From positions 124,001 to 188,000 of the forward strand of contig JAHHIE010000002.1 in assembly GCA_019358945.1 (NCBI GenBank): 64,000 bases of DNA, read 5' to 3'. The notes below the pieces were generated by a model. That model made no database searches and was not told the origin of the DNA. It saw only the letters and a program-made list of their open reading frames with translations. Shown here piece by piece: positions 9,440 to 36,830 of this stretch (the stretch's first letter is position 1; each line of letters begins with the position of its first letter). The DNA comes from Stenomitos rutilans HA7619-LM2 (lineage in GTDB: Bacteria > Cyanobacteriota > Cyanobacteriia > Leptolyngbyales > Leptolyngbyaceae). A program made the translations under genes and the position numbers.

Positions 9440-9712
9440 TTAGAACGGGGTAGTAAGCTGCTCGATTTCAGACTCAGGATCGAGCGTGTAGCCTGTCAGC
9501 TTGTAGAGGTTACGCAGATAAGCGACTTCACGTAGTACGTCGCAAAAGCCCTCTGAGAGCGTCACCACATCTAGCTTCATGGAGCGATCGAGCTTGTGGT
9601 TAATCAACGTCACCCGATGGATGTACTGACGCGGCAGGGTGACATCGAAACGGGTGGCTAACTCGTTGCTGGTGAGGAGGAATGGGTCAGCGTTGAGAAC
9701 GGCTTGAGTCAT
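9440..9712 (-). CDS. Hypothetical protein, 90 aa, close paralogue of 36555-36830
   Basis: The first 25 residues (beginning MTQAVLNADPFLLTSNE) are identical to those of the protein at 36555; similarity continues through HRVTLINHKLDRSMKLDVV and fades at the C-terminus. No known family recognised. It is the first leftward gene across from the RHH regulator at 9901, exactly as its copy is first across from the XRE regulator at 36397. Confidence 0.75.
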   Translation of the reverse strand: MTQAVLNADPFLLTSNELATRFDVTLPRQYIHRVTLINHKLDRSMKLDVVTLSEGFCDVLREVAYLRNLYKLTGYTLDPESEIEQLTTPF

Positions 9713-9805: not shown

Positions 9806-9865
9806 AGTAATACTGAGTATGCTTGTCAACATATTGAGTAATACTTGTGCTACGATAGTATTAAT
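9806..9865. promoter_or_regulatory. Operator repeats between divergent RHH regulator and 90-aa gene
   Basis: AGTAATACT occurs at 9806-9814 and 9837-9845, and its inverted form AGTATTAAT (8 of 9) at 9857-9865. Short tandem and inverted boxes like these are normal targets of ribbon-helix-helix dimers, and an RHH gene starts 36 bp downstream. Confidence 0.65.
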
Positions 9866-9900
9866 CAAGCGATACTGATGTTGTCGCTTGGGGTTGTTGT

Positions 9901-10227
9901 ATGCCGGAAGGTAAAGAGAAGATGGCTAGAACTTCTATAACAGTTCCAGAAAGTCTGCTAGAGCGATTTAGAAAGTATTGCGATAAACAGCGCCGCTCTG
10001 TTTCATCTCAAATAGCTTTGCTAATGGAGGAGGTGGTTGATGATACAGATGCGCCTGTGCCCGGATCGTTTGCTCAATCCACTCATGTGAAGAGCTTAGA
10101 AGACGCTGACACCGATATCGTGGTTACTGATGTCGGACACGGCAATCCCGGAAATTTTAGTAAGCCGCGTTCCGAGTTTTCGGAACCGAAAATACGAGAC
10201 GCGGGTGAGGAGGAGAGTAATGCTTAA
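9901..10227 (+). CDS. Ribbon-helix-helix regulator, 108 aa
   Basis: Residues 8-45 (ARTSITVPESLLERFRKYCD, then RRSVSSQIALLMEE) form an RHH (CopG/Arc/MetJ) domain: a beta strand with alternating Arg/Thr/Ile, helix A, turn and helix B. The rest is an acidic, probably disordered tail. An internal ATG at 9922 preceded by AGAGAAG is an alternative start. It probably binds the AGTAATACT boxes upstream. Its stop overlaps the start of the GIY-YIG gene by 8 bp. Confidence 0.8.
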   Translation: MPEGKEKMARTSITVPESLLERFRKYCDKQRRSVSSQIALLMEEVVDDTDAPVPGSFAQSTHVKSLEDADTDIVVTDVGHGNPGNFSKPRSEFSEPKIRDAGEEESNA

Positions 10228-10714
10228 CCCATCCACTCTTGATCCTCTGTCCTTGCCATCTTTACCGCTTGAACAGCGATCGCAACTACCCACATCCCCT
10301 TGCATCTACTTCGCGATCGATAGCCGAGGTGTTGTTCAGTGCATAGGCGGCACTGGTAATCTACAGAAGCGATGGCTACAGCATCATCGGTACAAACAAC
10401 TGAAGAACCTCGGTAGCATATCCGTAGCTTACTTGTCCGTTGACAAGCCAGCGCTGTTACGAGAGATTGAAGATGCTCTCATTGCTTGGTTTAATCCACC
10501 GCTGAATGGTTCGGCGGTTGTAGGAGAGATTCGGAGGGTGTCACTCTGCTTGGAGGAGGATCTGAAGGAAAAGCTTGAGCGTTTAGCCAAAGCGCGTAAG
10601 CGTTCGCTAAGCAATCTAATCGAAACTTGCATGGAAGAAATTGCGAAGCAGGCTGAGAAGAGCGGCGAACTTGAGGGCGAAGGCGATCGACCACAGGGCA
10701 AGAAAAAAGACTAA
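10220..10714 (+). CDS. GIY-YIG domain fused to RHH domain, 164 aa
   Basis: The ATG at 10220 follows GAGGAGGAG. Residues 26-97 form a GIY-YIG fold: PCIYFAID (GIY strand), VVQCIGGTGNLQKRW (YIG strand, catalytic Arg51), REIEDALIAWFNPPLN (Glu82, Asn96). The YIG Tyr is Cys here, so catalytic activity is doubtful. Residues 104-145 (RRVSLCLEEDLKEKLERLAK then RSLSNLIETCMEE) are an RHH DNA-binding domain. The paralogue at 35533 keeps the same N-terminus but has an XRE domain at the C-terminus. The fusion suggests a DNA-targeted GIY-YIG module that may cut or simply bind operators of its own family. Confidence 0.8.
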   Translation: MLNPSTLDPLSLPSLPLEQRSQLPTSPCIYFAIDSRGVVQCIGGTGNLQKRWLQHHRYKQLKNLGSISVAYLSVDKPALLREIEDALIAWFNPPLNGSAVVGEIRRVSLCLEEDLKEKLERLAKARKRSLSNLIETCMEEIAKQAEKSGELEGEGDRPQGKKKD

Positions 10715-27134: not shown

Positions 27135-27168
27135 CTGGTTGCTAATTGGTTACCAATTTGGTTACTAA
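27135..27168. promoter_or_regulatory. Three 11-bp direct repeats upstream of parM
   Basis: CTGGTTGCTAA (27135-27145), TTGGTTACCAA (27146-27156) and TTGGTTACTAA (27158-27168) are tandem near-identical boxes one helical turn apart. They lie between the divergent genes and upstream of the phased CCAC repeats. Confidence 0.65.
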
Positions 27169-27194
27169 ATGGAAACCATGTGCTACAGTTCTAC

Positions 27195-27240
27195 TTGTAT
27201 CCACAGGTAGCCACGAGTCACCACCTGACACCACGAGCTA
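27195..27240. repeat. parC-like phased repeat, copy 1
   Basis: CCAC occurs at 27201, 27211, 27221 and 27231, exactly 10 bp apart, in units such as TATCCACAGG, TAGCCACGAG and TCACCACCTG. A 33-bp stretch (27195-27227) is identical to 28506-28538 downstream of parR. Helically phased ~10-11-bp repeats beside parM are characteristic of ParR-binding centromeres (parC). Confidence 0.75.
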
Positions 27241-27262
27241 CAACTACATGTTTTGGAGGGCT

Positions 27263-28246
27263 ATGGGAGCTACTACGGCAAGCAAGCCGAGAACTGAAAA
27301 TTTGACACGAGAAACCGTTGTCTTTGACGGCGGTAATCGCACGATTCAGTGGATTGATGCTCTGGGGATGGTGCATACTATCCCTTCGTTTATCAAGTTC
27401 ATCGACCCAACTTGGCAAGAAATCGAGCCATCGCTGAATAGCGTGGTGATTGAGCACGAAGGGCAAACTTTTGTGCTGGGGCAAGCTGCTAAAGAAGAGA
27501 ACGGTAAGCCCATTTTTGAGGCGGGCAAGATCAGTCTTGCCCCGAAGCTTGTACTGGCAGCCTTAGAGCCAAATCGAGGCGAGACTGCTGTCCGCATCGA
27601 GCGGTTATTGTTGGCGCTGCCCAGTTCTCGTGTCGCTGAAGATTTAGAGATCTTGAAGTCGATCGAAGGGACGCATGAGTTTAGCCGCAACGGACAGTCT
27701 ATTGTCGCGACGGTGGTTCAGGTCGTGCCAGTTGATGAGACAAAAGCTGCTTATGCGGCGGCAGCGAGAGACCGCTTGTTTCGGTCAGAGAGCAAGTTGA
27801 ACGGTGTCTTAGATCTGGGTGGTGGAACCGCGATCGCCCGTCTCTACAAGACCGATGGCTCAATCAAGCGCGATATGGATGTCATCCTGCAAGGCACTGA
27901 TGCCTTGGCTGAGGCGATTTCGGCACGCATCACTCACATGCTGGGGCACACAGTGCCAGCGTGGGCAATCATGGATGGCATTGAGCGCGGCGATTACGCG
28001 ATCGGGGAAGGTGGGCAGAGCTTTAAGCCTGCTTTTGATTTTGCCCACGCAGAATGGTTGACCAACATCCGGCAAAAGATCGGTAGCAAATGGAAAGCGC
28101 TTAATCAGTCTGGTCAGATTGGAGAAGTCATGATCATTGGTGGCTCGGCACCTTTGGCAAAACCGTTGGAAGAGCTTACCAAGGGTCGGTTTTTTGTGTC
28201 TGATATGCCTCAAGTGATTTCTATTCGTTCGATGCCTCTGTTATGA
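27263..28246 (+). CDS. parM: ParM-like actin homologue, 327 aa
   Basis: Start at ATG 27263 (GGAGGG upstream), since in-frame upstream codons read through the parC repeats. Actin-fold motifs: phosphate 1 TVVFDGGNRTIQW (residues ~18-30), phosphate 2 VLDLGGGTAIARL (~182-194), adenosine MIIGGSAPLAKP (~290-301). A second-domain catalytic-type glutamate/aspartate region is present between. Length fits ParM/Alp proteins (about 320-360). ParM filaments push plasmids apart through ParR bound at parC. The stop overlaps the next ATG by 4 bp. Confidence 0.85.
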   Translation: MGATTASKPRTENLTRETVVFDGGNRTIQWIDALGMVHTIPSFIKFIDPTWQEIEPSLNSVVIEHEGQTFVLGQAAKEENGKPIFEAGKISLAPKLVLAALEPNRGETAVRIERLLLALPSSRVAEDLEILKSIEGTHEFSRNGQSIVATVVQVVPVDETKAAYAAAARDRLFRSESKLNGVLDLGGGTAIARLYKTDGSIKRDMDVILQGTDALAEAISARITHMLGHTVPAWAIMDGIERGDYAIGEGGQSFKPAFDFAHAEWLTNIRQKIGSKWKALNQSGQIGEVMIIGGSAPLAKPLEELTKGRFFVSDMPQVISIRSMPLL

Positions 28247-28494
28247 CTTTGCCGTTGCGTGTTCAGTTCTCAGGGGATAAAGCTGAGTACGCTCGGCACC
28301 TAGCCAAGGTTGCGGGGTTAGACGATGACGTACACCGCTTGTTTTGCCAAATGATGCATCTCTACGGCGCGGATTGGGAAAGCCGTTGGGCAGCAGACAG
28401 CAATCAGTTTCAACCGCGATCGCCCAAGCTTCTGCCTCCAGAGTTTGAGTCTGTCTCACATGAGTCGTCGATTGATTCTATTCCAGGGTTGTAA
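28243..28494 (+). CDS. Candidate ParR adaptor, 83 aa
   Basis: Small protein immediately after parM with an ATGA overlap. N-terminal PLRVQFSGDKAEYARHLAKV followed by helical GLDDDVHRLFCQMMHLYGAD would suit a short strand plus helices (RHH-like), as in ParR. The C-terminus is Pro/Ser-rich and acidic, possibly the ParM-binding tail. Sequence similarity cannot be judged by eye since ParR proteins are divergent; position, size and flanking phased repeats are the evidence. Confidence 0.6.
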   Translation: MTLPLRVQFSGDKAEYARHLAKVAGLDDDVHRLFCQMMHLYGADWESRWAADSNQFQPRSPKLLPPEFESVSHESSIDSIPGL

Positions 28495-34618: not shown

Positions 34619-35533
34619 TCATCCACAATCGGACTCCTCTAACTGACCAGGCGCAGCCCTCCCACTCAGCGCCTTCTGCTGCATCCCCCAGACAAAGAGG
34701 TTTGCTGCTGCGTTGTCCTGCGTCAGGATACGCCGCGCTTCTTCGTATTTGGTTTCTGAGATGACGTAGTGCTGTCGCAAGTAGGCAGCTTCCTCTAAGC
34801 CGTCACCTGTGTCGTAATCAATCCCGATCGCCTTCAACCGCTCTTTAGCCTTGCTCACATCCTTCTTTGAACTGGGGTTTAGTCCGGCATCCTTCAGAAG
34901 CGCTGTCATTGTGCGACCGTTAGCTGACTTACCAACGACTTGATCGGTGCCCTGTTCAATGAAGACAAATTCGGTTTTAGCTGGAGCTAGCTGGATCGGT
35001 GCTTCGCCTCGCGCCTCAGCCATGATGCGCCGACCAGCCTCTTCGCCCATCGTGGCTGTTACGGCAAAGAAGGCGGTTTCACGATCGCGCTTCACCTTTT
35101 CCAGGTCTGCCAGTAACCGCAGGTTCTCGTTTTGCAGCCGTAACCGCTCTAATTCTGCTGCTTGAGCAGGGATGACCACTTCAGCTTCGCGTGTTTTCAC
35201 TGCGAAGTAAGACTGTGCAGCAGAGATCTCCGGTTTGCGAGGATCACCATTCATTGCCACCAAGTAGGCACCCAGTCGCGAAATTTTCCAATCTTCCATC
35301 GGTCTACCACCAGAAGGGTTTTTTCCGGTAGCGCGGCTAAAGTGCTCTACGACTAAGTTCCCAGTGTTTTCACAAGCTAGTTTGGCTCGACTGATGACAG
35401 GACTAAAGTGCTTCCACTCGGAATAGCCAAGCAAAGGCATTAACTCACGCCCTGTCCAGTACTCGTTACCCGCTTCGTCAGTCCGGCAGATTGAGTCAAA
35501 GAGATTAGAAGACGCACGAGAAAGGCTAGTCAT
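34619..35533 (-). CDS. BRO-N/DinD-like antirepressor, 304 aa
   Basis: N-terminal BRO-N fold: FDSICRTDEAGNEYWTGREL then MPLLGYSEWKHFSPVISRAK, with NLVVEHFSRATG and ISRLGAYLVAMNGDPRKPEI; this order is that of DinD/BRO-N antirepressors. A coiled coil follows (ELERLRLQNENLRLLADLEK) and a C-terminal domain of about 110 residues with RTMTALLKDAGLNPSSKKDV. Related phage proteins relieve lysogenic repression. The ATG overlaps the GIY-YIG/XRE gene stop (ATGA). Confidence 0.8.
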   Translation of the reverse strand: MTSLSRASSNLFDSICRTDEAGNEYWTGRELMPLLGYSEWKHFSPVISRAKLACENTGNLVVEHFSRATGKNPSGGRPMEDWKISRLGAYLVAMNGDPRKPEISAAQSYFAVKTREAEVVIPAQAAELERLRLQNENLRLLADLEKVKRDRETAFFAVTATMGEEAGRRIMAEARGEAPIQLAPAKTEFVFIEQGTDQVVGKSANGRTMTALLKDAGLNPSSKKDVSKAKERLKAIGIDYDTGDGLEEAAYLRQHYVISETKYEEARRILTQDNAAANLFVWGMQQKALSGRAAPGQLEESDCG

Positions 35534-36180
35534 CACGCATCCTCCTCGTCTGCTTGCAGCAGTGACGCTTGAACGCGATCGGTATCACTCCCCTTTGGTC
35601 GATCGGTGGTAATAGCGCTATTAACAGGATCGGTTAAAAAAATTACTCCTAATGCAGACTCAATTGCGCTGAGTGTCGTCTCAGGGAGGACATCGACTTT
35701 CCCACCTTCAATTCGATACCAGTTAGCGACACTCATTCCAGCCTCAGCCGCAAGCTCGGTTACAGATTTTGGGGAATCTAGACGAGCTTTCTTAATCTGA
35801 ATCTCAAGGTTGGGAATGTCGTAGTCGGTAAAACGCCTAATCTTCACTGCTCCAACTCGCTTAGGACGAGCGCTGGTAACAGTTCTGTTCAGTACAGGGT
35901 TGAACCAAGCAATCAAAGCGCTTTCAATCTCAGACAAGAAAATGGCATCGTCAACAACTAGATGGGCAAGCCTCACTCCGCCCATTGTCAGCAGGTTTTT
36001 ATAGCAATGATGACTAGACCCTATCCACCGCTGCCTAGCATTCTTTGCTTTGCCTATGTACTGAACCACTCCTTGCGCGTCGATCGCAAAGTAAATGCAT
36101 GGCGTGGTGGGTAGTTGCGATCGCTGTTCAAGCGGTAAAGATGGCAAAGCAGAGAAGTCGATCGTCTCAAGGTTCAGCAT
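35533..36180 (-). CDS. GIY-YIG domain fused to XRE HTH, 215 aa
   Basis: Start ATG 36180. Residues 26-98 are GIY-YIG: PCIYFAIDAQGVVQYIGKAK then ARQRW (Tyr41, catalytic-type Arg), SEIESALIAWFNPVLN (Glu84, Asn98); all key residues are present, unlike the copy at 10220. Residues ~122-183 form an XRE HTH (SVTELAAEAGMSVANWYRIE). The N-terminal segment LPSLPLEQRSQLPT is identical to that at 10220, and 41 bp of DNA are identical (36107-36147 against 10253-10293, reverse strand). Confidence 0.85.
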   Translation of the reverse strand: MLNLETIDFSALPSLPLEQRSQLPTTPCIYFAIDAQGVVQYIGKAKNARQRWIGSSHHCYKNLLTMGGVRLAHLVVDDAIFLSEIESALIAWFNPVLNRTVTSARPKRVGAVKIRRFTDYDIPNLEIQIKKARLDSPKSVTELAAEAGMSVANWYRIEGGKVDVLPETTLSAIESALGVIFLTDPVNSAITTDRPKGSDTDRVQASLLQADEEDA

Positions 36181-36397
36181 CTTTCTCAACCTCTATAGAT
36201 TCATAAAGGTCTGAAGGTTGGCAGCCGAAAAGCTTACAAAGCCCATCGACTCGAACAAACATTTTTACGCCATCTCGACTTTTCTCCCAATTCCGAACTG
36301 TTGAAACGTCAATCCCCAACGTTTCTGCAATTTGGCGTTGAGTCAAGCCCTTCTCTTCTCTGAGCTTGGCAATTCTGGACACGTGTATTTCTCCCAT
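36167..36397 (-). CDS. XRE-family regulator, 76 aa
   Basis: Canonical Cro/CI HTH: VSRIAKLREEKGLTQRQIAE then TLGIDVSTVRNWEKSRDGVK. Small single domain with an acidic tail. It is divergent from the 90-aa gene at 36555, with repeated GTGAAC boxes between. Its 3' end overlaps the GIY-YIG gene by 14 bp. Confidence 0.9.
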   Translation of the reverse strand: MGEIHVSRIAKLREEKGLTQRQIAETLGIDVSTVRNWEKSRDGVKMFVRVDGLCKLFGCQPSDLYESIEVEKDAEP

Positions 36398-36437
36398 GCG
36401 TTAGTTCATAGCATTATGTTAGCACGAGTTTCTTCAT

Positions 36438-36468
36438 GTGAACTAGTTGACAGTGTGAACAAGTTAAC
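36438..36468. promoter_or_regulatory. Promoter with direct-repeat operators, rightward
   Basis: GTGAACTAGTTGAC (36438-36451) and GTGAACAAGTTAAC (36455-36468) are 17-bp-spaced direct repeats; a reversed related box GCGTTAGTTCATAGC lies at about 36398. TTGACA at 36447-36452 could be a -35 with a CATCATAG -10 region 17 bp later. The XRE protein at 36397 is the likely ligand. Confidence 0.65.
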
Positions 36469-36554: not shown

Positions 36555-36830
36555 ATGACTCAAGCCGTTCTCAACGCTGACCCCTTCTTGCTCACCAGCA
36601 ACGAGTTAGCCACCCGTTTTGATGTCACCCCACCGCGTCAATTCATCCACCGCGTGACACTGGTGAACCACAAGATCGATCGCTCCATGAAGCTCGATGT
36701 GATTACGCTATCCGAGTCATTCACTGACATCTGCCGGGAGATTTCTTACCTCCGCGACCTCTATAAGCTTGGCGGCTACACCCTCTGTTTAGAGGCTGAC
36801 ATCGAACTTATCAGCGGCGATCCGTTCTAA
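36555..36830 (+). CDS. Hypothetical protein, 91 aa, paralogue of 9440-9712
   Basis: First 25 residues identical to the protein at 9440, then PRQFIHRVTLVNHKIDRSMK with conservative changes and a divergent C-terminus. Function unknown. It leads the transcript from the operator region at 36438. A short hairpin GGCGCT/AGCGCC lies in its leader near 36487-36514. Confidence 0.75.
   Translation: MTQAVLNADPFLLTSNELATRFDVTPPRQFIHRVTLVNHKIDRSMKLDVITLSESFTDICREISYLRDLYKLGGYTLCLEADIELISGDPF

Follow-up and report, generated by a model that had tools for sequence, protein, structure and literature searches.

The window analysed here, a 64,000-nucleotide stretch of contig C70 in a cyanobacterial genome of 7.28 Mb, carries two genes for GIY-YIG proteins that end in different DNA-binding domains, RHH in the copy starting at 10220 (copy 1) and XRE in the copy at 35533 (copy 2). 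The initial annotation explained the fold of each fused domain by that of the regulator encoded next to it: the two would bind the same operators or dimerise, bringing the GIY-YIG module there. The locus raises the question of whether fused domains follow their neighbours in this way and, if they do not, at what a nuclease with such a domain might be aimed.

The window loci and the two-gene cassette

The features of both loci are listed in Table 1. Pfam confirmed the RHH and XRE assignments of the two C-termini. The N-termini had been described as almost identical, and a 41-bp exact match does join them (10253-10293 and 36107-36147, on opposite strands), but it stands for only about the first 35 residues; over the whole domain the GIY-YIG parts are 57-63% identical. 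The neighbouring and fused domains agree in class at both loci (RHH/RHH and XRE/XRE), but the fused XRE domain of copy 2 and the adjoining free XRE are different, unrelated subtypes. The operator-like repeats proposed at both promoters proved real. AGTAATACT has 10 matches in the window at up to 2 mismatches, compared with 3.75 expected, and its exact copy is found only at the candidate RHH operator, while the candidate XRE operator pair occurs in the genome only at 36437-36468 and in an exact duplicate of the region. A longer mechanical ORF from 10130 was rejected for copy 1, since the start at 10220, with its 8-bp overlap, fits the overlap usual in the family. At the XRE locus, the start of the BRO-N gene overlaps the GIY-XRE stop by 4 bp, making it the third gene of this operon; elsewhere it lies outside the cassette. 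Downstream of the GIY-RHH gene there is a Schlafen AlbA_2 gene (PF04326; 10802-11623 and 11583-13279), apparently interrupted by an IS200/IS605-type element.

Table 1. Features of the two GIY-YIG loci in the window
Feature	Position	Strand	Details
Divergent 90-aa ORF	9440..9712	-	Paralogue of 36555-36830; no family match
Candidate RHH operator	9806..9868	.	AGTAATACT at 9806 and 9837; inverted arm 9857-9868
Free RHH regulator, paired with copy 1	9901..10227	+	Pfam RHH_5 1e-11; 8-bp overlap with next gene, the family's modal value
GIY-YIG protein with C-terminal RHH (copy 1)	10220..10714	+	YIG Tyr replaced by Cys (residue 41, codon 10340-10342)
Fused RHH domain	10535..10636	+	Residues 106-139; Pfam RHH_5 1.8e-6
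BRO-N/DinD-like protein	34619..35536	-	Pfam Bro-N 1.9e-7; PADLOC candidate defence protein PDC-S13 2.4e-42
GIY-YIG protein with C-terminal XRE (copy 2)	35533..36180	-	Active-site residues intact; 14-bp overlap with free XRE gene
Fused XRE domain	35644..35793	-	HTH_31 7.5e-6; residues 123-172 when translation is read from 36159
Free XRE regulator (76 aa), paired with copy 2	36167..36397	-	Pfam HTH_3 3.4e-10
Candidate XRE operator	36437..36468	.	TGTGAACTAGTTGAC and TGTGAACAAGTTAAC, 15-bp near-repeats at 36437 and 36454, 17 bp apart
Divergent 91-aa ORF	36555..36830	+	Paralogue of 9440-9712

Both loci are copies of a two-gene cassette that recurs in the plasmids and accessory regions of cyanobacteria, a small XRE or RHH gene overlapping one that encodes a GIY-YIG protein with XRE or RHH at its C-terminus. 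The family was collected by running a profile built from 13 N-terminal domains through whole cyanobacterial genomes and adding plasmid matches, which gave 118 members of at most 310 aa once near-copies were dropped; the survey covers cyanobacteria, and neighbours were assigned from ORFs. Unsupervised clustering of the C-terminal parts together with the upstream ORFs returned XRE (65) and RHH (59) as two large unlinked groups, and RHH takes the place of XRE in about half of the cassettes. For 50 of the 52 DNA-binding partners, the gene ended at most 62 bp into the nuclease gene or at most 20 bp ahead of it, and 43 partners overlapped it, mostly by 4 or 8 bp. Other arrangements also exist: several nuclease genes have no recognisable partner, four arrays are ordered partner, nuclease, nuclease (L101, L191, L125 and L108), and one protein (L046) appears to be an RHH-GIY-RHH form, its GIY-YIG and C-terminal RHH domains recognised by Pfam and its N-terminal RHH by eye. 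A plasmid setting is evident from the 62 plasmid records matched, and the wider GIY-YIG family is present in 85 of 218 Nostocaceae genomes. A phage origin of the cassette was rejected: the 10220 protein had no match in the 50,697 phage records searched, and one close-relative query had none in IMG/VR, where the search detects close relatives only. We also rejected a conserved third cassette gene, the divergent neighbours falling into several unrelated groups. PADLOC and NCBIfam yielded no specific family for the nuclease, and the open-licence literature searched contains no description of the cassette, which is common yet unnamed.

Pfam scored the GIY-YIG domain below cut-off in both window copies (0.037 and 0.006). 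The assignment is secure because close relatives score above the cut-off, a UvrC profile matches (1.3e-5) and the predicted fold agrees. In the predicted structures, which are of moderate confidence (mean pLDDT about 70), the N-terminal part of copy 1 resembled the UvrC GIY-YIG domain (Z 5.7) and also EndoII, Eco29kI and PD-T4-3; its C-terminal part resembled the RHH proteins TacA2, CopA and CopG (Z 4.7-6.0) and also Arc, and the C-terminal part of copy 2 resembled SinR (Z 9.9), C.AhdI (Z 9.1) and C.Esp1396I (Z 9.0). Foldseek alone gave no hit with E <0.001 for copy 1. Among the 79 members with a DNA-binding domain, the GIY Tyr (Tyr30), the Glu and the Asn are conserved in all 79, the YIG Tyr (Tyr41) and the His in 78 each and the Arg in 75, and the Gly is invariant. 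The family thus has the motif Tyr residues, the catalytic Arg and Glu and the fold by which the GIY-YIG superfamily is recognised, the 10220 copy being without the YIG Tyr. Because the active-site residues are nearly invariant, the family as a whole is probably a working nuclease, a role that the annotation had raised as one option. The single exception at the YIG Tyr is the 10220 copy, in which the substitution by Cys was confirmed, as was the intact site of the 35533 copy. The altered protein may bind DNA without cutting it efficiently.

The fused domain and the neighbouring regulator

A survey of fused folds against neighbouring folds had been suggested, and we carried it out on the 51 non-redundant loci in which partner and fused domain both belong to the XRE or RHH class. 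The partner/fused classes were XRE/XRE in 16 loci, RHH/RHH in 22, XRE/RHH in 11 and RHH/XRE in two, with 13 RHH and three XRE sequences outside the two clusters labelled by eye. Classes therefore matched in 38 of 51 loci and differed in 13 (Fisher p=1.5e-4), and strict labels gave a similar result (44 loci, p=1.2e-4). This raw agreement is above chance, but nothing of it was left once relatedness was taken into account, in a control of little power. RHH/RHH loci cluster by descent in the nuclease-domain tree (97 columns, few resolved branches). Across five independent pairs on well-supported branches, a low-power comparison, the partner class went with the fused class in 1.5, against it in 1.7 and showed no difference in 1.8. 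Within the well-supported clade that holds both window copies (XRE/XRE 13, RHH/RHH 6, XRE/RHH 10 and RHH/XRE 2), 19 of 31 loci matched (p=0.22). The simple matched-fold rule was accordingly rejected as a general rule after the tree control, with the reservation that five pairs give little power.

Mismatches in both directions were confirmed by Pfam. Pfam verified both sides in L043 (partner HTH_26 9.4e-14, fused RHH_5 6e-7) and in L067 (partner RHH_5 7e-10, fused HTH_31 4.6e-8), and L189 combines an HTH_31 partner (3.2e-8) with a fused RHH_5 domain (5.1e-5). One partner type (MRNRIKEFVDSKG...) was found beside four different fused domains, an RHH in L043 and three XRE subtypes in L042/L101, L094 and L095. 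We also compared own pairs with shuffled ones. RHH own pairs were no more alike than shuffled pairs (37.9 vs 38.7, p=0.47), while XRE own pairs were (p=0.006), a result carried by five loci. The window RHH pair ranked third of 22; the window XRE pair ranked 13 of 16, its fused domain resembling the neighbour less than most other loci's fused domains do.

That a fused domain owes its fold to binding the neighbour's operators, or to dimerising with the neighbour, now seems unlikely. The agreement in 38 loci, similar own pairs such as those of L037, L086, L194 and L045, the high rank of the window RHH pair and the need of RHH domains to dimerise, together with the one protein that apparently has RHH at both ends, are all consistent with it; but the association follows nuclease-domain lineage, 13 loci disagree, RHH pairs are no closer than chance and the window XRE pair is unrelated in subtype. 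In a few loci (L037, L086, L194, L180 and L045) the fused domain is nevertheless similar to the partner beside it, and there the two may have operators in common.

Free and nuclease-fused forms of the same domain

Similarity to the partners of other loci pointed in another direction. Fifteen of the 79 fused domains were at least 60% identical to the free partner of a different locus, whereas none of the 79 reached 60% with its own partner (best value 52%); this comparison is biased towards foreign best matches, one own partner being set against many foreign ones, and own matches lie mostly near background. The free XRE regulator of the window shares 58 of 71 residues (82%) with the L094 fused domain and is 79% identical to the second fused domain of L101, while the window's own two fused domains matched free partners elsewhere at 32/59 and 16/47 at best. 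The likeness extends to DNA. Over 1,169 bp starting at the domain boundary, the DNA of L101, where the domain is fused to GIY-YIG, is 94.4% identical to that of L122, where the domain is free and has an upstream region of its own; two Nostocaceae genomes thus carry the same domain in different forms, free in one and nuclease-fused in the other. Likewise, a 254-bp stretch is 89.8% identical between L071 (fused) and L139 (free), and lower values were obtained for other free/fused pairs (L042/L120 79.8%, L094/window 75.9%). L134 and L141 resemble a reciprocal swap, though L134 begins at a contig end, which hides whether its first RHH is free. Judged by these comparisons, the DNA-binding domains are exchangeable, the same domain being free in one element and fused in another, and among close relatives a regulator domain changes between free repressor and nuclease-fused form. 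The DNA similarity is evidence of exchange and is silent on its direction or advantage.

If domains are exchangeable between free and fused forms, it follows that a fused domain would usually recognise something other than its neighbour's operator. We looked for the window XRE motif beyond the window. L174, an orphan GIY-XRE gene with a fused domain of the same subtype as the window's free XRE, has the motif at its own promoter (1 of 2,000 shuffles was equally good). No good site of the window XRE type was found at the corresponding promoter position of L094 and L101, where the domain is fused and the free partner is a different one. The sequences suggest that both the free and the fused forms of this domain subtype bind the motif, and that a fused domain does not always target its own promoter. 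Two further sites resembling the window XRE operator, at L101:1963-1995 and in L122, are located just ahead of the next nuclease gene, within the last part of the coding region for the upstream DNA-binding protein, and may be there by chance.

The L174 promoter and the lost YIG Tyr of the 10220 copy would also fit fused proteins that are regulators only, with the GIY-YIG domain serving as a fold or DNA clamp that does not cut. Near-invariant catalytic residues in 79 diverse members argue against this, and we consider it improbable. The reading that we favour, to which we give about even chances, is a self-regulated, sequence-directed nuclease with exchangeable DNA-binding domains. The first gene would encode a small XRE or RHH repressor acting on the repeats at the cassette promoter. 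The second, overlapping the first and probably translated together with it, would encode a GIY-YIG DNA nuclease, as its active-site residues suggest, which the C-terminal XRE or RHH domain would aim at a DNA site. That site would most likely be an operator or other site of related elements, where the nuclease would nick or cut in the manner of ICP1 Odn. Where the free partner is missing, as in L174, the fused domain could be an autorepressor, as in I-TevI; such a nuclease would occupy its own promoter and need a rule against self-cleavage. The 10220 protein, its YIG Tyr lost, might bind its site with little cutting.

A further step, which we regard as possible though rather doubtful, is a plasmid arms race at operators, in which a repressor domain captured by a GIY-YIG nuclease is turned on the elements that use its free form, and the domains keep moving. 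If the nuclease is indeed aimed by a borrowed repressor domain, origin targeting of the Odn type would be a single instance of a weapon used more generally between mobile elements.

Known systems and surroundings of the cassettes

The annotation had known of no described system of this design. None was found in the open-licence literature, but I-TevI and ICP1 Odn come close in working principle. Odn is a nuclease of the GIY-YIG superfamily that has its DNA-binding domain in common with a replication initiator, being 42% identical to PLE1 RepA_N in this part (PMC8263062). Like the cassette protein, it is a chimeric nuclease with a DNA-binding domain common to the protein of another mobile element, and specificity modules shuffle in both (PMC8263062); that a fused domain can be a close relative of another element's DNA-binding protein is seen here in the 15 of 79 domains and in the L101/L122 DNA. 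Odn, however, is encoded by one phage gene on its own, has a T5orf172 domain and carries its RepA_N domain at the N-terminus, aimed at an origin (PMC8263062), whereas the cassette has a C-terminal XRE or RHH domain, a coupled free regulator, a plasmid setting and putative targets. I-TevI and the T4 intron endonucleases share with the cassette protein an N-terminal GIY-YIG and a C-terminal DNA-binding part (PMC2988022), and I-TevI is a nuclease that also binds its own promoter as an autorepressor (PMC2988022). It differs in having no free partner regulator, in its other DNA-binding parts and in its role in intron homing (PMC2988022). The Tsy transposon (YRec, small HTH, TnsF, GIY-YIG nuclease) is likewise a mobile element in which a small HTH gene accompanies a GIY-YIG nuclease (PMC10293859), but its nuclease works with recombinases, and the portion of the source used here describes no fused XRE or RHH domain (PMC10293859). 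The 2006 survey of the GIY-YIG superfamily, in the portion available, treats HTH fusions in general terms and leaves cyanobacteria and RHH unmentioned.

Two classes of operon have a similar layout. In type II toxin-antitoxin modules, as here, a small XRE or RHH gene comes first and overlaps a downstream nuclease gene, and the cassette could be read as such a module with the upstream protein as antitoxin and the GIY-YIG protein as toxin. The plasmid setting agrees with this, as do the antitoxin-like profiles (HipB, MqsA) that the DNA-binding parts match weakly. The supposed toxin, however, bears its own DNA-binding domain and matches no toxin family, and its partner is exchanged between loci or, for several nuclease genes, not recognisable at all, which leaves this reading little chance of being right. 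Restriction-modification controllers (C.AhdI, C.Esp1396I) are also XRE proteins of about 75 aa with a gene that overlaps the nuclease gene and repeats at the promoter. The small XRE protein as controller (C protein) of a GIY-YIG restriction enzyme has precedents in overlapping C and R genes and in GIY-YIG restriction enzymes, and would fit the match of the free XRE to the Control_protein profile (4.9e-5) and the likeness of the fused XRE model to the two controllers (Z 9.1 and 9.0). Against it, no methyltransferase was found among the genes examined at both window loci or at the annotated plasmid loci, the nuclease carries an XRE or RHH domain of its own and half of the cassettes use RHH, so that we hold it to be very unlikely.

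Some observations concern the surroundings of the cassettes. Contig C70, on which the window corresponds to 21800-85799, repeats itself exactly (100%) and head to tail from about 8059 to 212403, with a period of 102,201 bp, and the whole window falls within the repeat; either the assembly runs twice round a 102-kb circle or the tandem duplication is genuine. The window also contains, at 27146-28246, a ParM-like actin gene that scores 268 bits to the ParM-like genes beside cassettes L071 and L153, with an overlapping 83-aa ORF (28243-28494) in the ParR position. RHH-type cassettes L071, L139, L153 and L145 lie divergently beside actin-like, ParM-like genes, and the free RHH of L071 has a weak ParG match (3.8e-4). 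The cassette is probably not the partner of the ParM-like gene, which has its own partner downstream. The domain that is free beside the ParM-like gene in L139 is nuclease-fused beside the ParM-like gene in L071.
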